Origin: Liolophura sinensis
Lineage: Eukaryota; Mollusca; Polyplacophora; Chitonida; Chitonidae
Assembly: GCF_032854445.1 (NCBI RefSeq)
Contig: NC_088301.1
Coordinates: 43,457,116 to 43,521,115, forward strand
DNA: 64,000 nt
Direction: 5' to 3'
Below are positions 14,243 through 63,680 of the stretch, in pieces. Made by a program: the position numbers and the translations under genes. How positions within the stretch are numbered: position 1 is the stretch's first letter; the number at the start of each line of letters is the position of its first letter. The notes under the pieces are model-generated. The model saw nothing but the letters and a program-made list of their open reading frames with translations. It was not told where the DNA came from and ran no database searches.

Positions 14243-14583
14243 ATTGGGTCGCGTCAGTCTGGTTGAGCCAATGAAATGTTTTCACCGGGCCTGTCAAACC
14301 CCTGGAGATAGTCGGTCGTATTGGCAAATAGATTTTACAGTTTGTTTGTGTTTTGTCGTCCGATACATCAACTTTTACTGGCCTGTGGATGTTTGTCACC
14401 GACATTCCACTCAGAGCTCGAGAAACTGTTTTACACTGAAATGTCTTCTTACCCTGTATGCAAATTTGAGCGCTAAATCGGAGTGTCATTTTAAGCCTTG
14501 TACTTTGACAAATGTCAGCGCCAAGTAGCTAGCTTCGTCGAATTAGGAAAAATCGTAGGTGTTATCAGAAGTGTACTTATAAA
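14243..14583 (+). promoter_or_regulatory. Possible promoter elements of FoxQ2-like gene 1
   Basis: An inverted CCAAT box (ATTGG, 14243-14247), a direct CCAAT (14268-14272) and a TATA-like TATAAA (14578-14583) precede the start codon at 14617. The TATA element is only about 34 bp from the ATG, so if used it would give a leader of a few bases. An upstream 5' exon is an alternative. All elements are short, so this is tentative. Confidence 0.3.
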
Positions 14584-14616
14584 GTTAAAACTTCAAAAAA
14601 AAACCCTCAGAGAAGG

Positions 14617-15894
14617 ATGCAGAGCATGAAGTTGGGTTCTAACTGTACGCCCGGCCGCCAACCATCAGCGGGTGGGGGGACCTTGCCGCTCCACCATCAC
14701 ATCCCATCAAACGAGACGGCAACCATTTCCAGTGTCAGCCTTCCGGTACACATGAACAACGGGTACTGCAGACGCATGCCTTCCTATCCATCAGAATCTA
14801 ACAACCTACATCTACAGAACCGACTCTTTTGTGAGGACCAAACGAACAGGTCTTTCTATCGTGGCGGTTGTGCAATTTACTCTTCGGATAATGTGGAGGT
14901 CGGCGCAAAGCAGGCCTCCTTGCAGCAACCGTTTATCAACATCTCTGTTGATCCTGTCAAAGAGAACAGGTGGTTAGAGAAAGAAGTCTCTAACAGCAAA
15001 GATGGTCTCTACCCTATCAAGAACTCTAACACCGACGCTTACATGCTCCAAATGCCCCTTAGTCGCCGTACAGAGGAAGCTGCCAGTAATCTCGAACAGG
15101 CTGTCAACGGCACCATATCATCTGATCAGGAGTTAACAAAGCAAATCCCCACAAAAGACAAGAATGGTTTGGCCATCACTCATTCAGAGAAAATCGGTGA
15201 AGTCTTAACGATAGAACATAGGGACGATGGACGCAGCTTAGTGGATGTGAAACCCACATTGTCTTACATCGGACTGATAGCCAAGGCGATAATGGAAAGT
15301 CCACAAAGCCGCCTAAGTTTAGGGTCTATATATACTTGGATAGAGAGTAACTACCCATATTATAGGAACCGAGGACAAGGTTGGAGGAATTCTGTGCGAC
15401 ATAACCTTTCCCTTAACGACTGTTTCATCAAAGCGGGCAGGTGCGAGGACGGCAAAGGAAACTACTGGGCAATACACCCGGCAAACCTGCAAGACTTCCT
15501 AAGGGGGGATTTCCGCCAGAGACGACGCTCCAGACGCCGCGGAAGAAGGAAGGAAACAGATCTCGGAATGTTTCACATGGCTCCGAACGGCTACATTGGT
15601 GCCGTTGCTTCCTCCCTTCCTCCTGGAGTTGCCTTCAATTCACCGCCCCCCATCAACTCGCTGTACTCGCCCTACACCGAAGCGGAGCGGCGTGCATACA
15701 GGCTGGACGAGGCACTCCTCAGACAGAGTATGAACAATCCATTTGTGAAATGGTACAATGGGACGAACGGTAGCTATCCTGGCTCAACCCCCAACTCGTC
15801 TATGTACCCATCGTCCCTTACCCAGTGGCAAGCTTACCACGACGGTACATCGCCAACTATGTATCAGTTCGCTGGCTTTTCCACTACTAGATAG
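14617..15894 (+). CDS. foxQ2: FoxQ2-like forkhead transcription factor, paralogue 1
   Basis: A single uninterrupted exon of 425 codons plus stop. Residues 1-210 are low-complexity, rich in S, N and Q. The forkhead domain spans about 211-308: it opens KPTLSYIGLIAKAI, the recognition helix is WRNSVRHNLSLND (256-268), wing 1 follows as DGKGNYWAIHPANL, and a basic wing 2 ends RRRSRRRGRRK (302-312). GWRNSVRHNLSLNDCFIKAG and IHPANxxDFxRGDFR place it in the FoxQ2 class and not FoxL1, FoxF or FoxD. The C-terminal 113 residues are rich in S, P, Y and G, as in activation or interaction tails. No clear EH1 (Groucho-binding) motif was seen. The reading frame starts at the first ATG. FoxQ2 genes act in anterior/apical patterning, and duplication of the class in spiralians is known. 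Function here is inferred from family only. Confidence 0.88.
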   Translation: MQSMKLGSNCTPGRQPSAGGGTLPLHHHIPSNETATISSVSLPVHMNNGYCRRMPSYPSESNNLHLQNRLFCEDQTNRSFYRGGCAIYSSDNVEVGAKQASLQQPFINISVDPVKENRWLEKEVSNSKDGLYPIKNSNTDAYMLQMPLSRRTEEAASNLEQAVNGTISSDQELTKQIPTKDKNGLAITHSEKIGEVLTIEHRDDGRSLVDVKPTLSYIGLIAKAIMESPQSRLSLGSIYTWIESNYPYYRNRGQGWRNSVRHNLSLNDCFIKAGRCEDGKGNYWAIHPANLQDFLRGDFRQRRRSRRRGRRKETDLGMFHMAPNGYIGAVASSLPPGVAFNSPPPINSLYSPYTEAERRAYRLDEALLRQSMNNPFVKWYNGTNGSYPGSTPNSSMYPSSLTQWQAYHDGTSPTMYQFAGFSTTR

Positions 15895-35588: not shown

Positions 35589-35900
35589 TCAAAGACGACC
35601 GCAAAACTTCTCAGCAAATAGTCAACGGCCATGTTATGAAAATGTTGATGGCAAACCCCGCCTACAACTGTCAGGACGCTTGACTCTAGAAGAATGAAGG
35701 GGTTTCGCTAATTGATAAGATAAGCAGCTAGTACTAGACAAACTGGCTACCGGGCCGAGTTGACACTCGCGTCGAACTATGATCGGCGAGGGGATTATAA
35801 CCAGCTTGTGTCCCTGGCCCCGTGTATTACATGGACCCTGCGGCAGGTGGAGCGACGTTCGTCAGAGTGCCCGGTGGGTCAGCTCGGCTTTCAGTCTGCC

Positions 35901-36980
35901 ATGCGAATGGAGGACTCTCACCCGATAGCGAGACACGGGTTCGAATACAGGAAGTCACCAGTGCAGGACACAAGAACTGCCCACCCTTACAATTTCTTCA
36001 ACGGACCCTTCGAGGAGGCATGCCACAATGATGGATCCGTAATCAGACGAATGTACACAGTCCAGCAACGTGGACAACATGCAAGTCTCTGCGTGCAGTC
36101 GTCGTCGTACTGCACACCCTCCGTGGAGTGTCTTGCGGGTGAGACAGAGAACGTTCAATCACGGGAAACCGAACAGGAATCTGAAGTGGACCGAAGAGTT
36201 ATCACCCCGGACAGCACCGACATGGTCTCAGATGCCCAGACCAAGGCCACAGCTACCAGCGCTGGTTCCGCATCATCAGATCCAAAGGAAGGCCCGGAGA
36301 CGAAGCCTCCCATGTCTTACATCGGACTTATATCGAAGGCGATATTGCAGTCGCCGGACAGACGAATGAACCTGGGTTCCATTTACACCTGGATGGAGAT
36401 GAACTTCCCGTACTTCCGACAGAACAGTCGCGGGTGGCGTAACAGTGTCCGACACAACCTTTCCCTGAACGACTGCTTTATCAAAGCCGGCAGGTGCGAG
36501 GACGGCAAGGGGAATTACTGGACGATACATCCGGAAAATTTGGACGACTTCATTCGAGGAGACTTTCGCTTAAGACGACGTTCCCGACGTCGTGGACGTA
36601 AAGGTGACAACGCAAGGCCTGACGTGCTGGTCAAACCGACGTACCAGCCTCCTCATTCGGCGGCTGGGCAGCTATATGTACCCGCTTCCATGACCGGGGC
36701 CGTCTCATTTCCGGCAGGCCAGCAATATCTCCTGCAGGACCCTTCACCGTCCTACCCTCAAGCTTACAACGCACCGTACACCATGTACGATTCCAACCCC
36801 GCCCAACACGGACCTCCAATACCCCCATACGGTACGTGGACGCACCCCCAAGGCGGGGATCAATGTGTGGACCTTATAGTGCCTTCCGGGGGGCACAATT
36901 ACAGCCACAACCCCCCTCATTTGTACGGGTACACGAACTATTCTTACCCGGCTTACGGTTATCAACCCGGGCAGTGGTAA
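35901..36980 (+). CDS. foxQ2: FoxQ2-like forkhead transcription factor, paralogue 2
   Basis: Single-exon frame of 359 codons plus stop from the first in-frame ATG (35901, G at -3). The frame stays open upstream to 35724 but has no ATG there, so a longer product would need a spliced leader. The forkhead domain is at about residues 134-228: KPPMSYIGLISKAI, helix WRNSVRHNLSLND, wing DGKGNYWTIHPENL, basic RRRSRRRGRK. By hand count about 77 of 101 residues match paralogue 1, and 30 consecutive residues from helix 3 into wing 1 are identical. The long tail is rich in P, Y and G. Same strand as paralogue 1, about 20 kb away and also intronless, so it is probably a tandem duplicate. Flanking protein regions share little, which points to an old duplication or different roles. 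Confidence 0.88.
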   Translation: MRMEDSHPIARHGFEYRKSPVQDTRTAHPYNFFNGPFEEACHNDGSVIRRMYTVQQRGQHASLCVQSSSYCTPSVECLAGETENVQSRETEQESEVDRRVITPDSTDMVSDAQTKATATSAGSASSDPKEGPETKPPMSYIGLISKAILQSPDRRMNLGSIYTWMEMNFPYFRQNSRGWRNSVRHNLSLNDCFIKAGRCEDGKGNYWTIHPENLDDFIRGDFRLRRRSRRRGRKGDNARPDVLVKPTYQPPHSAAGQLYVPASMTGAVSFPAGQQYLLQDPSPSYPQAYNAPYTMYDSNPAQHGPPIPPYGTWTHPQGGDQCVDLIVPSGGHNYSHNPPHLYGYTNYSYPAYGYQPGQW

Positions 36981-52709: not shown

Positions 52710-52935
52710 TCAAATTTCTGTGGAATGTGCAACGGTTTCCGACTGGCTGCTCTCTGCTGACAGCCGTTCCTCATTGGTCAAATCTGCTCCAACAGAACTG
52801 GGTTTACTCATGTCCATGGGAACTTCTGACTCCTCCCCATTTGTAAACTCCTCCTCCTCCTCCTCTAAGGGTTCCACCCCGTCTAACCCAGCGCTCTCTC
52901 CTTCCTGCTTCACTGACAGCATAATTTCTTCTTCC
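52710..52935 (-). CDS. foxP: FoxP last coding exon (acidic C-terminus)
   Basis: 226 nt with acceptor TTTTGTAG and stop TGA at 52712-52710. It encodes [11 protein letters not shown] (a possible SUMO-type VKQE site), a run of six Glu from GAG repeats, and [10 protein letters not shown]. Acidic C-termini are usual in FoxP. Confidence 0.9.
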
Positions 52936-55900
52936 CTACAAAAGCCAACAAAAAATTTGACTGTCAATAGGTACACAGAGCATCAACATATGGAACATGA
53001 CCCCTCATGTTATTATACTTTACACCTGACCTCCACACATGCGGTACATGTTGAGATAGCACCCGTAACATTTATCTTAATACTGATTTCAATAAACATG
53101 AATCAGGAATATTTTAATTTGTATTAAGGCGATCATTAGATCTAATAAAATCAGGTCAACTTGTTTTATTTTTTTTTTCAGGGATTACAAGTATTTCATT
53201 TTTTGTCCACTGCAAAAGTCCAGACAGCCGCATGTTATCTGCAGCAAACAACTTTTTAATGACAGCCTAATTAATATGCACAAAAGGCATCAATGAAAAA
53301 ACACCAATTTTTGGACAAAACCTGGCATCAGTCCATGAAACGCTTTTTACAATAAAAACCTTCACATTGTTACCAGACGATGATGCCAGTACTTGGGGTA
53401 TCATGTAAGCAATTCATATACTTTCAAATTAGAAAATTTAAAAAACATCAGAAATAATGATGAGTTTCACATGCATACCTTGCCATTTCTGGTGAATTTT
53501 GGCTTTCTGAAAGATTTGTCTCCCCTTGTGGACTGGGGTGACCTTTCATGGAGAGATCTTCTGCTGTGTCCAGATTCGTCGTCTCGAAGTGCGAGTTGTT
53601 GATGAGGGGAAGGTTTGCATCAGACAGCGCCGCCTGCGACAGAGATAGCTGTGTGAAATGACACAGGAATTTTATTACAAAAGTACAGATACAGACGTGA
53701 TAAGGTTCATGCAGCACAAATATCTGATAAATTTATCCGATACCCTCAAAATTTTAATTTCTGAATTCCACGACTTTCAAATATTCTTCAGGGCTGCATA
53801 AACCCTTATCACATGCATTTATTCACCACGATGACCCACACATTACTGGTGAAGTCATCTGCATGAGATGCCACAACACAGAGGATGAATTTAAAATCTT
53901 TTATCGCTAAGGGTAATACAAGTCCTACTGAGTCATGTGACCAGTTGAGAAATTTAGGGAACTATTTTTAATCATATTTACTTCAAGATGGGCACTGAAA
54001 AAATTTGAGCAAAAGGATTTTACTATAGACGAACAGAAAAATTGAGGAGGTGAAGGAAAAATGAGTCATGTGCCTCTGGAACATGGTGAGACAGGTGATC
54101 AGTAAATTAATGTCAACAAAGGTTGCCTAAAATTATTACCTAAGTCATATGATACAGTTTGTCTGTTTTGGCCTTTAGTGACAAAAGATTTTGAACATCT
54201 CTATTAAAACGTAAATTCTGTTGAAAGTCTCATAGCATTGTTTTGGCAATGTATGTCCGCTACCAGCTTGAGTTGTTAAAATAATGGCTGAGAAATGAGC
54301 AAATGTGAAAGTACATATCAAGTTTCAATTCAATCTGACAAACTGTTTTGGCAAAATGTTTGGAAAACTTTTAAAGTCCAAAACACCACAAAAACAGCTG
54401 GAAAAGGATTAAATCATCTGAATGTTTAACCTGATAGGTAAGACTTCATCATAAAGTCCTATGCTACACTTTTATTTTATCCTTAGTTGGCGGATACATA
54501 TTTCATACTCCTAAATCTACACAGGGTGCCAGTTTTAACAGAAATTGCCACTAAGGAGTCATGTGCGGTCATAAGCTGACCAGATACAATGACAACAGAT
54601 GTACCATGTCACAAACTGCAGACTATATCAGACAAGGGCAAATCAATATTTACATAAAGCAAACAATTCTGCACCTCTTGAATGTATTCACTTACTCTGC
54701 CAACAGCCCACTTGATAATTAATGGAACCGATCAACGGCGGGATCACAAGCCAGATTCCTTTTCCTACAGACTTGGGATCTTTAATTCATGCTTTTAACA
54801 TGCAGCTTACAGATATCCTGATCTAGACACTAATATATCAGGGAGAAATATCTATTTATAATATGGCTGTAAGCTATAAAATGGTAATGGACATCCATTT
54901 GCCAAACTATATTCATGTACATACGGTCAAGCAGGAATTCCTCATTTTAGCTCAAGCATTGAATTCTAAGATCCTAAGTGTATATCACTAAAATGGTGAT
55001 AATTTTGTATGAGCCTACAGCACAATACCTCAAAAAAATTTGGGGGGGGGGGGGGGGGGGGGGGAAATATTCAAATTTAAAAAAATTAATTGAATGAAAA
55101 GATCAATTTATTAGCAAAATTTGAACTCAATCATGCATAACTTACTCGCAAACTAGCATTGATGGTGTCTCCATACAAGGATGGCTCTTGAGATAATGAT
55201 GGAGATTTCATGGAAATGTTCCTTTAAAGAGAAAATGAAACAGTTTGTTACATGAAGCAAAAACATCAGAAATGTTCATACACAATAGAAATATTCAAAT
55301 TTCCAATTTCAAATAAAAATGCTATGCATCATTCATGATCATTGAAATGCCTTAAATGTCACTCTAACAAATAAGACACTATTACATTTTTACTACTTTG
55401 AATCATTAAGTTGACAAGTATTCTTCAAATTAAGCCAAGGATAAACAACACCTTCTATTCCTGGACACCTGGCATGTAAGCAATCAAATTTTGTCATTTC
55501 AAAAATTATATTTCAGTATCTTTCCTCAAGTGTTGCCTAGGATATTTTCATGTTCATACAACAACTACGGGAAATTCAGAGACAGCACAACCTACCTACC
55601 TACCTGATACATGCTCTTAGATGATACAGATAAATTGTACACATTTACATACTGTATGTATATGTAATGCATGCTTGGGTAAGAGTTAACTCCCTTTATC
55701 AATTTGACAGAAAACTGCAGAAAGCATTCAGTATCAATGCAATAGGTGTTACAGAGGCGAAAGTCTTTCCAGCTTGAACTGCACGAAGCAAAAGCCGTTC
55801 ATGCATTAGAGAAGGCCAATGTTGACCAATTACATATTATTATATGGTGTATTTCATCAGATGCCAAAAAACAATCAAACTGGTAATGATGGTGTGAGTA

Positions 55901-58900
55901 ATTAGCATTCAGAGAAATTCAAATGCCAACAGACATTTGTTGGTTAGGTTTAATTTTATGAAATGAAGTTGTACAGATCAAATATATCCTGCTAGAAATT
56001 ACTTTTTTTTTCCAGATGTTCGACATGAAACTACAGAGTTCTAACTACAGGGGTCTATGAGTATGAGCTAGTCTATGGCGTCTACATGGAATGGTAGCCA
56101 TGATAGCAGGCAGGGCAGGGGTCAGAGGGCAGGGGTCACAGAGAGAAAGGCTGCTTACTGTGGAGCCTCATTTTCATGATATTTTCTGGGCCGTCCTCGT
56201 GTCAAATGGCGTCGTCTTACAAACTCTAAGTCGTCTACCATCCAGAAGGAGCCGAAATCATCCTCATACCTTACAAAACATTTATGCAGCGACAGATTGG
56301 TGCGAATAGCATTCTGTGCAGCAAGAGAAAAGAGGGAGAGAAAACAAGAGGGCCCTGTGAGTAGGAAGACAACGGGAGGATCACTGACATGGGGGCACTG
56401 TCAGGGGAAACAAGCACAACTTATATAGTAAGACACAAAACTCACATACCCGCTCATTTTTTGCGGTCTCCTTTTGTAGAATTCGACTTCATCAACGGTC
56501 CATACGGCCCCCTTAACATTCTCAACTCGCATAAAACATTTGTGTAGGCTAAGGTTGTGTCTCACAGCATTCTACACAAAAGAACATAAGAACAAACACA
56601 TTTACTACTGCAATCTACTCAAACAAAACTTTAAGGAAACAAACGATCTACAACCAGGGACCGTCCATTAAAAACATGGCAACACTGGATGATGACCATG
56701 GTGAAAACATCATATCACCCCTTCCCACCTTCGTCAAAGTGACGGCTCAGTCAGACCACCCAAAATGTTTAGGTGAGTGTTCAGATTTGCCAGGCAGTGC
56801 CTGGACGGTCCCTGAAATCAAACATTTTGCTTCATTTTGGAGGGATCTAATTAATTGAAATTTCGACTTTTTTTTTTTTTTTTTTTTTTTTTGAAAATCA
56901 AAACTGAAAATGACATTTTACGGCCTGTTTGGCTTAACTGTACAATATCTCAAACAATCTTAAGACAAAAATTGCAAATAATCAGTCGAAATTTTTCTTT
57001 AGAATAACTATTTGTTTTAAACACCACATACACCACGAACCAAACATGTCACAGCACTGACAAGTTAAATTCATGATAACACCTCCAGAATAACGCAACT
57101 TCTACATCACTACCTACAAAGGTGTAATTCACTCTGATGTAATTAGTCTCCTGAGGATTGTGCAACCCAGTGCCAGACCATGCAAGCTAAATATCCAATA
57201 GTCCCCTTACCTGCAACTTTATTATGATGTGTACACAGTATGGGCTTTGTATAGTCCACAGTGTGAAGTACCATTATAGGGATTACATACATGTAAGAAG
57301 TTTGCCATAATAAACCAAAATTACCTTGTCAAGACCAATCATATAGTAAGCCTTTTTAGCAAATACAAATTATACATGTAGAATGTTTTACTGGTCTGGG
57401 TTTTTTTTCCAGATCTCGGTCAAAAGAATTTGTCTTCGTCAAAAGTGATGTTCACATTTGAGATTTCCTAAAATTTAGCTGCAGATTGCACTTGTTATTA
57501 ATTAATTAACTAGCGAGCTACAGTTTTCCTTCAGATAAAATGCTCAGAGCTAAGATCACCATGACCAATGTGGCTAAAGTGATCACAATGCTTTAATCCC
57601 TTTGCGTAAAGAACCACCTTCACAAGACAATATTTTTTCCTAACTTTCCTTGCAAATCTAGGTGCAATTTATGACGTAACAATAAACGTTACACGACAGT
57701 GAACTGAAGATGGTTCCAAGAACTAAAACCTGCTGGAAAAGTATAGTTTCAGTCCCCTTGAAGCACATCCTACAAAGCTGAACAACAAATACAGCATTCA
57801 CTACAATAAAGACCATGCAAAAACAATCATCACATACAAATATGCTTAGTAGACTCAACACAAACTTGTGGACTTAAGTGAAAATTTCAAATTCGTTCTT
57901 AAAGCTTATTTTTCGATTTGATAACGTAAAATTTTGCACCCCCCCACCCTCACATGAGTGTTATCTTAAGCCAAATGTATCCAAATTTCAACTTCCAGTA
58001 ACAAAAACTCAGCGTTTTTGAAAGATTTTAAATGTTAAGAGAAATGGCTGTGAAATAGAATAGGCTCCTGCATCTTACAGCTGTTCAATACTCTAGTACA
58101 TGTACATCTACATGTAAATGATAACAGAAGTTTCATTATGCGTATACTGGTATAAAGTCTCTCATCTTACATCATGTTTTTGGACGTTTAATTCATTTTC
58201 AAATAGTGATATGATCATAGGTACAATAGGCTCAAAAATAGGGCGCATGGGCTTCCCTAATCAAATCTAGTAACACCTCCCCCCCCCCCCAGCCCCACCT
58301 CCTATTCTCCCAATTTACTTTATTGCTCCAGAGTTTATGTACATGCATTAATAACTAAATGCAATGTTCTAAACCCTTGTCCCTCAGCAAAAGCCCTTGT
58401 CAGTCCACATCAATATTAATAAAATGCAAATCAATCACGATATGCTGTTAAGAGAGGGGTGTTTATCTTGAGTGCGAGTAGCTGGCGCAGATGATGTTGT
58501 GTACAGGCCTGACTGTAAACAAAGTTTGTAGTGCTCAATACAGGTCATTACACAGAGCAAACAAGGCCTCTTAAATCATTACCTACTGGAGACAACCACA
58601 GTGTTAGAACAAATGGTGACGACAAAACAGGCTTAACCCGCTGAAAAGTGTAGGCAATAAAAACAGACACAGACATTGGCTATCTTGTCCCCGGTAAATA
58701 TGGATTTGTGCCCATATACACTGGTTGTTAAGCTGTGTCACCAAAGTATTAGCAGATGATTCAGTTGTCATTTTCCTGTGATAAATGCTCCATTCCTTTC
58801 AGAATATAAGAGAAATCAATGATAAACTGTGGATGTTGGGTGTTCATGTCTGAAGACTGGCTTGGATATGGGCATGCAGAACTGACCTCTACTCACACCC

Positions 58901-61900
58901 ATCAAGGTCGTTATCACCCCCATCTCCCCCAAAGCCATACCAGGGAACACACCCTGGATTAGCTTGGACTAGAATGAAAATAAGTCCACTTTCATTGGCT
59001 AACAAATATCTTCATCAGCCATAAGGTATCACCTGATCTATTTCCAGTGATGCAATCACTATGCCCAGATCACATAACATGTTGTTTACTACATGTCAGT
59101 GACCTTTATATGGTTTCCTTGTCACAACGATTGCAGTCAATTCCCTGCTAATGCAGATAAAAGAGGGTTGAGACCCGCATATAAGAGCAATTCCTGCTCA
59201 GAACAACAATATATCTTCAAACCATTTATTGACCACTAAACCTGAGCTAAATGCTGCAAATGGACATGTATGGAAACATGTATTTATTGTTTTGTTTGTT
59301 TGTTATTTCTTGAACTGGAAGTGGACTTCTAAAGAGGAATTACTTTTGTGCAAGGTACTTGTGACTGACCACTGGTACAGAATTCTGAAAGGGCTGGACC
59401 TAGCCACATCTCTAGAGAATAGATGCACAAAAATCAATAGGCTATCCATAAAGAGCTGGCCTGGCCTGCAGCACTTCACAGGGAAATATCAAACTGGGCT
59501 GTGTTTACATTAACCATTAAGATAAACAACCCTCCAGGAAAAACTAGGGCTGCCAATACAAGCTGTAGTCTGGCTGGGCCCATTGTAAACAATACTCAAC
59601 AGGCCTGGGTTTTCTGAGGACAGATGGCCACTGTGTAGGGAGAGAAATTAGAAAACAGCCACAACAGTCAAGAGAAAGATTTCTGGCCCCAAAAATGTGT
59701 CGCCTTTCACACATCCTAGAGCTTGACACAGGCACCAGCCAGAGCACAGACTATGAATAGCTTTCCTATGGTCTTAAGAAAACCTGAGGAAGTACATAAC
59801 CATTGCAACATAACATATGTCCTTTGTCAGTAATTCTAAACCCAGTTGTTTGTGACATGAGCATGTGTTCTGCTCACAGAATACCTTCCATTATCGGGTT
59901 TTAATGCAGAAAATATAGCCTACATGTATCTCCACACAACAAATTAATCACTGTAGTAGCCATGGAAACCATGATTTCACAGTCCATCACCTGTCAGCCT
60001 ACCTGGTCCAGTAGACTGGAGAAGTCTTGGTCAGTGTTGATCATGAACATACAACACTGTCCATAGAAAGCACATTAACTGCAAGACGAATCAGTCATAA
60101 AACATTCATATTTTCAGACTGCAATTCTCCTGATTTTCTTTTGTTAATTAATAATTAATCGGTATCATTTCAAAGCAAGAAACAAAAATAAACGTCCATA
60201 AAAAAAAATCAATCTTATAACAATATTGAAGTATTTCTGGATAAAGATTACCGATATAGGAATTCAATGACTTACAATAATCTGTATCTGGCTCCACCTG
60301 CTGCTACCTGTACACACAATCGGATATATCAACTCTGGACAAAGGCCTTCTAGCTCACTGCTAACAGATTGGAGCTAACCATTCAAGCTTCAAACTCAAG
60401 TGGAACCAATTTCTCCACCAATTTATCTTTCACTTCAGTTTAAAACATATCGATTTGATGCATTCCCATGATGATGATAGCTTGACAAAAACAGGTAATT
60501 CACAAAGTCTGTTGTTTTCTTTGTACATTTCTCAGTGTCATGTGGAATCCTTTGGTTTCCAAATGGTTATGCTATAACAATGTACCATATACAAACAAAT
60601 ACTTTAAAGTTCAGATCATTCTTAACATCAGTGGCTAATAAGTAAGAAAAAAATCACACTATGCTGTGCACATGCACTATGTTTTCGTAAGAATGCTAAA
60701 TCAAGATGCAGCAAAACATGCAGACTGGAGACGCCTTACTATAAAAAAAAAATCCCTCTTTGACACAGTGGGTATTTGCTACATACAATGATGTAACACC
60801 AGGATAGACCTTCTTTCTAATGACACTAGATTCTTTCCCTCAAGATTATATTGCAAAAAAAAAAAAAAAAAAAAAAAATGGTGCAGGTAGATTACCATTA
60901 TTTTACAATAATGTCCCATTTTGTGACACTTTCTGCCACAAAAATCAAACAACGATTTCCAATGCCAGGGGTAAAACATCATGTAGGAGTGTGAAAGGAA
61001 ACCATGAATCAAGTGCGGATAGGCCTCATATGTACCATCTTTTCTAGGTTGAACAGATTGTACATACAATGAACACAGATTTAACAATCAACAGCATATA
61101 AATAACAACATGAATTTGAACAGGATTCTAGTGCTTTAACCCCTGTTATACTAACGTGAGTATATCATTAACCTGGTCATTCCAGGTGAGGTAAGAACTG
61201 ACAACACCTGGATTCTCAATTCCCTTAATTAACACAGCAGAGAACTTGTACAATAGTACAAGAGACAAGACTAATCCACTATTGGCCGCAGGTACGTTCA
61301 CAGTTTAACAGTTGGAATAGTCATAAAAACATTACTTAAGACACAGGTCTCAGGTGAGAACCCATAGCAATGTTATCACTGATCACATTATAAACACACA
61401 CACACATGTACATGTATAACAAATGGGGTACATGGAGAAACACAAAAAAAGAAAAACTAAAAAAAAAAATATATTACCCACAGAATATCCAAATCATTAT
61501 TCAAGAGCATTTAACCATTAGAGGCAAAAATTAAAAAATGATTAAAGAGATATATATTCTACCAGGTGTTTACATAATGGATTCATTCATGTTAAGTTTG
61601 AACAGCTTGTTTCCCCCAAACTGTCCTATACAATAAACCAAAATGTCACAATTTGTTAACAGAAAGGAATACATACATGTATTCAAATATGCATGAACAT
61701 TTATCTTTATGTTTTTTTTTTTTTACAGCTCTAACTCACCTTCCAAGTAGCTTCATTCCGCCGAAAGTAGGCAAATGTGTTTTGGAACCATTGGTAGATT
61801 TCATTCAGTGTTAGTTGTTTGTGAGGAGATTCAATTATTGCCTAGAACAAAAAAGTACATTATTCTGTACGTATTATAAGAAAAGAAAACAAACTGAAAA

Positions 61901-63680
61901 AGTATTCTTGTATACAAAATACATTCACACATAATGGTGACTTTGAAATAACAATTCCAAACACATAGCAAACTTGACAAAACATACAAAAATTCCAGAA
62001 GTCCAAGAATACAAAACCAAAATCCTCAAGCAAGTATTGTTTTGTTGACAAGGTAAACCAGCAAAGGCTGTTGACCACGTTCTTGGAGCAAACAAAATGT
62101 TACTTTTGAATGACACAGAGGTTAAACGATTTAGTCGTTCTTTCCTTTAAAGTATTATAACTAACTCAAACTAATTGTGTGAACATGTAGTGTACCACAA
62201 ATGAGAGGGGGGAGAGAGAAATTTTCTTAATAAATTTGTCCAATGCAGGCAGCCCAAAAATAATGGCTAAATAATGACATTTCTGCTTCCCATACTAAAG
62301 AGTTACTCAGAGATGTGTTTCTTACCTGTCGTATAAGCGAGGCATATGTAAAAGGTGGTCGCACATCTGTATTCTTGTAAAATTCACGATTTCGCTGAAT
62401 TTCTGAAAAATATAATGATCATTTGAAAGAATATCGGATAGCAAAGAAGCAAACAGATAAATTCATCAATTTAAACTCTAAATGTTACATTAGAAATCAA
62501 ATCTTTACTCAACGACACATTGCATTCTCAAGTTACAACACAGTGCAAATTAATATTCATAATAAGCTGAAACAAACTTTTACATATGTCAAGGTAAGCT
62601 GAGTTAATACTGCAAAGTGAGAAATAAAGATGGATGTTTACCTAGGATCTCACCTGCTGAAATGGGGAGATTGCACTTGTCAGAAACGCGCCTGCGGATA
62701 GGTCCCGCAGCGCTGGGCGACTGGAGGGAGGCTGGGTTAAGATGGGTTTGGGGGGTGGAGGGCTGGCTCGATGGAGTCATCATCAGGGGCGTCGACACTA
62801 GCGACACCGCTGATGGCGGAGACGTCGGAAGTAAACTAGCTATACCCGTCGATGCTTGCTGAGGAGAATGTTGCTGTTGATGTTGCTGCTGCTGTTGTTT
62901 TGGAAGAATTCGGATCTAAGGAACAAGTAAAAACCAGGGGTCAAAATTAACTACAAAATATCTCTGGAAATATAGGACCATTGATTCAGCTGAATATAGC
63001 ATAACACTAGTAAGCTGTTTTATCAAAAATACAAAATGATTTGTCTTTGGCTTGAATCTCAAACTGCTTTGCAAAAAAATACTTCAGTGAAAATAGGTGC
63101 GCCTTTGTACAAAATAAATGTTTGGTGTAACAATACTTGCATATAAAGTTATTAAGGTTTACAAGTTCCTTTATTAAGTACATGTAAAACCTTAAATAAT
63201 GGATGTTATTCCAACACTCTTACCGTATCAGATTTCTCTGACTGGGGTTTCATATGAAGATGCTGCATCATTGCTTGCAACCTCTCTTTTTCTTTGGATA
63301 ACTGAAATCATAGAATAAATTCCTTTGCAATCATTTTATGTTTATTTACCACAGCTAATTCCATTAAAATGTTAATATTTGTTTCTACCCTTGTACGAAA
63401 TATCACTAGTTAGTGTTAATGCTTCAACCTTTAATTTTTCACCTGTTTGCAAGGTATTTATTCTAGCATACTCTGAAGGCATTATTCTGTGTTAACTGAT
63501 AAAATTATACTTCTTGTGAAGTCCTGAATTCTCTAAGAGAGAGCAGATTAGCAGATTAGCCAAATAGGTGCCTCAGTAGTTGTCATTCTAACCTGTAATT
63601 CCAGCTGGCTGACAACTTGCATCTGCACTCTGGCCTGAGCTGTGTTACGGTCATCAAGCTGATGTTCACTGTTTAAGTGC
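52710..63680 (-). CDS. foxP: FoxP forkhead transcription factor, 3' part, ten exons seen
   Basis: Minus-strand gene entering from the right edge. Exons in transcript order: 63680-63593, 63301-63224, 62915-62654, 62402-62326, 61841-61740, then one of 56571-56450 or 56313-56159, then 55221-55146, 53633-53479 and 52935-52710 (stop TGA). All junctions have GT/AG borders and consistent phases. Exons 1-2 give the FoxP leucine zipper ([19 protein letters not shown], then [16 protein letters not shown]), which mediates dimerisation. Exon 3 is rich in Q, S and P. Exons 4-6 form the forkhead domain ([20 protein letters not shown] onward). Exons 7-9 are an acidic C-terminus. The zinc finger and N-terminal Q-rich part must lie past 64000. 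FoxP proteins are mainly transcriptional repressors, with roles in neural development and behaviour. Family and structure are certain; the expression role here is inferred. Confidence 0.95.
53479..53633 (-). CDS. foxP: FoxP exon 8
   Basis: 155 nt. It opens [17 protein letters not shown], related to the vertebrate NSLPLLSN stretch, and continues with a Ser/Glu/Asn-rich tail that ends in a split Arg codon. Confidence 0.88.
55042..55064. repeat. Poly-G tract (23 G)
   Basis: A pure G run in a FoxP intron, prone to length error in sequencing. Confidence 0.95.
55146..55221 (-). CDS. foxP: FoxP exon 7
   Basis: 76 nt. It encodes [20 protein letters not shown] then NASLR, matching the LYGDALNAAL region after the vertebrate FoxP forkhead domain. 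Confidence 0.9.
56159..56313 (-). CDS. foxP: FoxP forkhead exon 6b (alternative)
   Basis: 155 nt, acceptor CTTGCTGCACAG, donor GTAAGC. It encodes [18 protein letters not shown], then [18 protein letters not shown] and a basic [11 protein letters not shown] tail. It duplicates exon 6a but replaces the recognition-helix His with Thr (RHN to RTN) and changes wing 1. It adds an AT-hook-like GRPRK. Its phase equals that of 6a. The same kind of alternative exon is known from arthropod FoxP, from memory of that literature. Confidence 0.92.
56450..56571 (-). CDS. foxP: FoxP forkhead exon 6a (canonical)
   Basis: 122 nt, acceptor TTTTGTGTAG, donor GTATGT. It carries the canonical recognition helix and wings: [18 protein letters not shown], then [19 protein letters not shown]. 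It is followed after only 136 nt of intron by exon 6b, which encodes the same structural segment. Confidence 0.95.
56572..61739 (-). other. Large FoxP intron splitting the forkhead domain
   Basis: About 5.2 kb between exon 5 and exon 6a, with poly-T (about 56868-56892) and poly-A (about 60856-60878) runs, a C-run near 58280 and no convincing exon. The 94-codon plus frame at 59229 has no splice or motif support. It is the likely home of elements that choose between exons 6a and 6b. Confidence 0.6.
61740..61841 (-). CDS. foxP: FoxP exon: helices 1-2 of forkhead
   Basis: 102 nt, phase 0 at both ends. It encodes [19 protein letters not shown] then [15 protein letters not shown]. The alanine in FAYF is the residue family knowledge links to FoxP domain-swapped dimers. 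It splices to either of two downstream exons. Confidence 0.95.
62326..62402 (-). CDS. foxP: FoxP exon: start of forkhead domain (helix 1)
   Basis: 77 nt. It encodes [18 protein letters not shown] then TYASLIRQ, ending in phase 0. It is nearly the same as vertebrate FoxP at this point. Confidence 0.95.
62654..62915 (-). CDS. foxP: FoxP exon: Q/S/P-rich linker before the forkhead
   Basis: 262 nt, acceptor TTCCTTAG, donor GTGAG. It begins IRILPK, has a short CAG/CAA-coded glutamine and histidine run ([10 protein letters not shown]), a long Ser/Pro/Thr linker, then [15 protein letters not shown], the conserved stretch leading into the FoxP forkhead domain. Confidence 0.92.
63224..63301 (-). CDS. 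foxP: FoxP exon: second half of leucine zipper
   Basis: 78 nt, phase 0 at both ends. It encodes [19 protein letters not shown] and ends DT. The heptad positions L, L and M continue from the previous exon. Confidence 0.9.
63593..63680 (-). CDS. foxP: FoxP exon: start of leucine zipper
   Basis: 88 nt, acceptor TTTCCAG, donor GTTAGA. It encodes [20 protein letters not shown] and on to VVSQLELQ, the linker and first half of the FoxP leucine zipper. It begins with the last base of a split codon, so an upstream exon exists beyond this point. Confidence 0.9.

Follow-up and report, generated by a model that had tools for sequence, protein, structure and literature searches.

Candidate mutually exclusive forkhead exons in FoxP of the chiton Liolophura sinensis

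Santos et al., in 2011, are said to have described a pair of alternative forkhead exons in the fly and to have placed its origin at the base of Bilateria. The arrangement is thus already known, from the fly and from human FOXP1. In the fly, an alternative last exon distinguishes the forms, and there are two alternative stops, according to the portion of PMC6372147 used here; isoform B is found in about 65% of FoxP neurons (a passage of PMC7776582) and has been linked to operant self-learning, in an extract that also describes RNAi against isoform B as being without measurable knock-down (PMC4070984). A figure legend in a review (PMC11701043) terms exons 18 and 18b of human FOXP1 mutually exclusive; other passages of the review state that the reading frame is preserved when 18b is included and, after Gabut et al. 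2011, that exon 18b takes the place of exon 18 in human embryonic stem cells. Section 15 of the same review, again after Gabut et al. 2011, gives CGATACAA as the sequence preferred by FOXP1-ES and GTAAACAA as that preferred by FOXP1. Honeybee FoxP is also described as having two isoforms affecting the forkhead domain (PMC6219247, in part), and bilaterian FoxP genes have been studied by Tsai et al. 2025, as cited in a passage of PMC12828049. Among the top-ranked literature matches, no report of alternative FoxP exons in a mollusc was recognised by its title or the start of its abstract.

The genome of this chiton, a mollusc of the lineage Polyplacophora, was published as that of Liolophura japonica, with 632 scaffolds and a total of 609,495,693 (in part of PMC11068029); a later correction gave the species as L. 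sinensis (PMC12441733). The 609-Mb assembly searched here has 609,464,459 bases in 632 contigs. Within it, the stretch of 64,000 nucleotides analysed, referred to as the window (contig NC_088301.1, positions 43,457,116 to 43,521,115 of the forward strand), contains a FoxP gene with two adjacent exons, 6a and 6b, for the second half of the forkhead domain. We consider it highly probable, at roughly 0.92 and on the strength of sequence comparison, that these form a working mutually exclusive pair inherited from a bilaterian ancestor.

The exon pair and its reading frame

The FoxP gene is encoded by the minus strand and runs leftward in the window, with exons 4, 5, 6a, 6b and 7 followed by a proposed exon 8 and a proposed last coding exon. 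The exon numbering is taken from the preliminary description and is provisional with regard to the upstream exons. Exon 4 (62326 to 62402) contains the start of the forkhead domain and exon 5 (61740 to 61841) its middle part, common to both forms; the downstream exon 7 (55146 to 55221), also common to both, is joined in frame by 6a and 6b. Exon 8 is proposed at 53479 to 53648, with an open frame, AG/GT borders and an EDLSMK peptide (the acceptor may alternatively be at 53633), and the last coding exon at 52710 to 52935, where an open frame behind a TGTAG acceptor ends in ...VAHSTEI and the stop codon. At the other end, an exon with proposed borders at 63593 and 63680 encodes the end of a zinc finger and the start of a coiled-coil. 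Joined to a zinc-finger exon near C7:43523025, to the right of the window, it gives a Pfam FOXP-CC match of 93.5 bits (cut-off 28.9), the join itself having been inferred from the exon borders. A Q-rich frame is present on the same strand further to the right, near C7:43533000, and may be spliced into the FoxP gene.

The gene had been described as FoxP, and structural matches bear this out. The domain assembled from exons 4, 5 and 6a has FOXP2 (2a07) as its best match among solved structures, with an E-value of 1.2e-47, and that from exons 4, 5 and 6b has FOXP4 (6xat), with 1.8e-38. For each form, the first seven of the 46 distinct solved sequences matched are FOXP chains (FOXP1-4), followed by other Fox classes; the match of the zinc-finger and coiled-coil piece to FOXP-CC agrees with this. 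With exon 7 added, the Pfam Forkhead model scores 101.6 bits for the 6a form and 91.6 bits for the 6b form. The 6b form has no match in NCBIfam, a prokaryote library.

Exon 6a, the canonical version, spans 56450 to 56571 on the minus strand (122 nt) and encodes the recognition helix and the wing region ENVKGAVW in a peptide of 40 residues. Its borders read ...TGTGTAG/AATGCTGTG ... ATGAGCGG/GTATGT. Exon 6b, the alternative version, spans 56159 to 56313 on the same strand (155 nt), with borders ...GCTGCACAG/AATGCTATT ... GCTCCACA/GTAAGC, and encodes a peptide of 51 residues in 51 codons with no stop among them. Both have AG/GT borders, are entered in phase 0 and are left in phase 2. Base 56571 is the first of exon 6a and base 56159 the last of exon 6b, so that the limits proposed for the pair beforehand, 56159 to 56571, are exact to the base. 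Borders, phases and translations likewise agree with the proposal of two adjacent minus-strand exons for the same half of the forkhead domain, and the GRPRK tail ascribed to 6b is present in its translation. Of 40 aligned positions, 21 have the same residue in the two peptides, and the codons differ for 14 of these 21. The 6b donor, GTAAG at 56154 to 56158 as read from sequence and translation, has an A at position -1, and a second CACAG is found 41 nt ahead of the 6b acceptor.

Intron 5 contains a 160-bp element (56655 to 56814) with 33-nt terminal inverted repeats that are 73% complementary, the outer 13 nt exactly so. It ends 83 nt before exon 6a and is possibly a small non-autonomous DNA transposon.

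Exon 5 ends in ...ATWK in phase 0, and the phase 2 in which both 6a and 6b end is taken up by exon 7. Phases and translations make the tandem exons interchangeable in frame: in translations of the spliced exons, the joins 5-6a-7 and 5-6b-7 are open throughout. In the join 5-6a-6b-7 the frame is shifted, with a stop 13 residues past the joint codon, while skipping both exons (5-7) leads to a stop within exon 7. As combining or omitting the two exons meets stops, they can be swapped but neither combined nor dropped without loss of the protein. This frame logic is the strongest evidence from sequence for mutually exclusive use of 6a and 6b, which we regard as well supported. The term "mutually exclusive", as used in the preliminary description, thus holds for the reading frame and is a prediction for the RNA.

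The intron separating 6a from 6b (56314 to 56449, minus strand) is 136 nt long and has three branch-point-like YTNAY sites, whose distances from the 6a donor are 21, 49 and 92 nt. A branch point at 21 or 49 nt, if used, might sterically hinder direct splicing of 6a to 6b. No unusual RNA fold was found in this intron (z -0.21).

The 6b donor overlaps an in-frame TAA (56157 to 56155, in CCACA/GTAAGC), which would be read when the donor is not used. Exon 6b might then serve mainly as an alternative last exon, producing a FoxP protein without the common C-terminus in a fly-like layout; its frame does read directly into the TAA after ...ENEAPQ, and the fly, in the cited portion of PMC6372147, has such a last exon and two alternative stops. 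The GTAAGC donor, however, is in the exact phase required for exon 7, and in human FOXP1 inclusion of 18b preserves the frame, as a passage of the review has it (PMC11701043). We consider predominant use of 6b as a last exon unlikely, and internal use of both exons as alternatives ahead of exon 7 the preferred reading.

Relationship of exon 6b to the fly and human alternative exons

The fly and human alternative-exon sequences used for comparison were read off oligonucleotides printed in papers and cover the corresponding parts of the exons. Fly isoform-B primers and homology arms, as given in parts of PMC4070984 and PMC7776582, encode 17 contiguous residues and the peptide WMVDDN. All 17 residues are identical in chiton 6b, with different codons at 12 of the 17 positions, and 13 of the 17 are found in 6a; the WMVDDN fragment matches 6b at five of six positions and 6a at three of six. 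The fly isoform-A primers printed in these parts encode AATWKN and AVWTVD. A guide against human FOXP1 exon 18b, in the section of PMC8189919 that prints it, encodes DEFGSF, which differs from the DDFGSF of 6b at one of six positions and agrees with 6a at one of six, a comparison limited to these six residues. Between DEFGSF and DDFGSF, three of the six codons are silently changed and one conservatively. As far as these fragments extend, exon 6b most likely corresponds, in a mollusc, to exon 8 of fly FoxP and exon 18b of human FOXP1.

The order of the exons is shared with Drosophila FoxP, where the canonical exon (7) comes first and the alternative exon (8) second. In the fragments of fly sequence, as in the chiton, the splice point follows ...ATWK and the alternative exon encodes the 17-residue and WMVDD peptides. 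In contrast, the fly alternative exon is described as a last exon with a stop of its own, whereas the chiton 6a and 6b donors are both in frame with the common exon 7. In this respect the chiton gene resembles vertebrate FOXP1, where exons 18 and 18b are a frame-keeping swap of part of the forkhead domain.

When the 6b protein was searched against the genome, eight matches were obtained at E<=10: 6b itself, 6a (58% identity, E 1.6e-7) and six weak ones, which coincide with other forkhead genes of a genome-wide Pfam scan. A DNA search with the exon pair found the pair itself alone, in a search that scores the best candidates only. An assembly duplicate, or a second FoxP gene containing the pair, was rejected because a single place was found by these best-candidate searches. 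The exon-by-exon Pfam scan (E<=0.001) includes 6a, at 29.7 bits, and does not include 6b, which suggests that 6b, taken by itself, is too short for that model or diverges too far from it.

Absence from the scan could also be read as a sign of decay, 6b being the remnant of an exon that was duplicated long ago and has no function in the chiton. Decay of this kind is very improbable given 51 stop-free codons, borders and phase that are intact, and all 17 fly residues retained over 12 changed codons; on the last two of these grounds 6b was rejected as a pseudo-exon. Tandem exon duplications have arisen independently in many genes, but it is likewise very improbable that the chiton lineage duplicated the exon separately and came to resemble the fly and human pattern by convergence, as 6b is nearer to the alternative exons of fly and human (17/17, 5/6 and 5/6) than 6a is (13/17, 3/6 and 1/6). 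An inherited pair remains the reading we adopt.

The Pfam scan lists 71 forkhead matches genome-wide. Several fall in clusters with equal or near-equal scores (G000:C6:23103435-23176712, G000:C8:46575249-46635027 and G000:C8:53135487-53165832), which suggests recent tandem copies. The window itself contains two further forkhead genes on the plus strand, at 14533 to 15894 and 35724 to 36980, each with the whole forkhead in one open frame; a sequence motif suggests that they are FoxQ2-like. Proximity of FoxQ2-like genes to FoxP would thereby be seen in a mollusc as well. FoxQ2III is close to FoxP in amphioxus, lamprey and skate, according to part of PMC12828049.

Elsewhere in the assembly, a contig of 108,685 bases (G000:C99) has seven COX1 matches, one of them shorter, at a spacing of about 15.5 kb, and probably represents copies of the mitochondrial genome joined head to tail in the assembly. 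An M-C-Y-W-Q-G-E tRNA cluster is present in the mitochondrial contig (15,209 bases), whose gene order is presumably the ancestral mollusc order.

Predicted DNA-binding differences and regulation

Aligned to human FOXP2, with residue numbers of that protein anchored on the known R553, exon 6a shares 32 of 35 residues and exon 6b shares 21 of 35. Just two residues differ in the recognition helix (helix 3) of 6b, V552I and H554T, and Asn550 and Arg553 are kept; the His-to-Thr change proposed for this helix is thus located at position 554. The wing region is where 6b changes most, with V565Y, N567D, V568D, K569F, A571S, V572F and T574M, and these seven substitutions substantiate the different wing that had been proposed. 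Over the first 35 residues, the net charge is +3 in 6a and 0 in 6b, to which the extra tail of 6b adds +2.

In the helix of FOXP2, Asn550 and His554 are the residues that read the bases. Loss of the histidine, together with a less basic domain half, suggests that the site preference of the 6b form is altered or its affinity lower; the two forms should therefore differ in one or the other, which is a fair inference from the substitutions. His554 is placed among the interacting residues in the relevant part of a docking paper (PMC9362936). By analogy with human FOXP1-ES, the likely function of the pair is to provide two proteins with unlike DNA preferences.

On the preferred reading, splicing of exon 5 to 6a would produce the canonical DNA-binding domain, and splicing of exon 5 to 6b a domain in which threonine stands where FOXP2 has His554, the wing differs and the tail, with GRPRK, is longer. 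Either exon would then be spliced to exon 7. Transcripts that include both exons, or lack both, would meet an early stop and give no full-length protein. The two proteins, alike outside this half of the forkhead domain, would be expected to have the same partners and different preferred DNA sites, as reported for human FOXP1 and FOXP1-ES. From the sequence we infer transcription of both 6a and 6b, their exclusion in the cell, the differing DNA choice and the age of the pair.

In human cells, a screen identified MBNL1 as the main repressor of 18b (PMC8189919, in the section cited), and MBNL binds introns of the human FOXP1 pre-mRNA (an eLife paper, PMC4978528, in part). In the chiton, MBNL-type YGCY motifs are frequent around 6b relative to same-strand windows (8 against a mean of 2.6, a count reached by 1.5% of windows), as are PTB-type TCTT (2.0%) and NOVA-type YCAY (4.1%). 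Compared with dinucleotide shuffles, the YGCY counts are unremarkable: three in the 136-nt intron (mean 2.6, P 0.54) and five in the 150 nt downstream of 6b (mean 3.9, P 0.30). Control by MBNL through local YGCY sites was therefore dropped, as base composition, in these shuffles, explains the count. Human 18b is thus under MBNL1 control in cells, whereas chiton 6b is without motif support for such a switch.

Age and layout of the pair

The preliminary description, which knew alternative forkhead exons from arthropod FoxP, had dated the pair to the early protostomes; the 18/18b pair of human FOXP1, with its 6b-type DEFGSF, points to an older origin. A human pair with a 6b-type wing makes an origin before the protostome-deuterostome split most likely, and the sequence comparisons indicate that the pair probably predates this split. 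A single duplication ahead of it would be the simplest reading.

The ancestral bilaterian layout may have been kept in the chiton, with both exons internal and one common C-terminus, the last-exon layout of the fly being derived. As the chiton is on the protostome side and has a vertebrate-like layout, a common C-terminus is the better guess for the ancestor, but this proposal is based on three animals and we consider the odds for and against it to be even. The TAA overlapping the 6b donor indicates how such a change could come about: failure of a single splice site would make an internal exon a last exon.

With the chiton, a mollusc would join the animals able to make two DNA-reading domains from one FoxP gene, and the exon pair offers a concrete case of the FoxP switch in a spiralian. 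The fly and human sequences on either side of it support a switch that may be as old as Bilateria.
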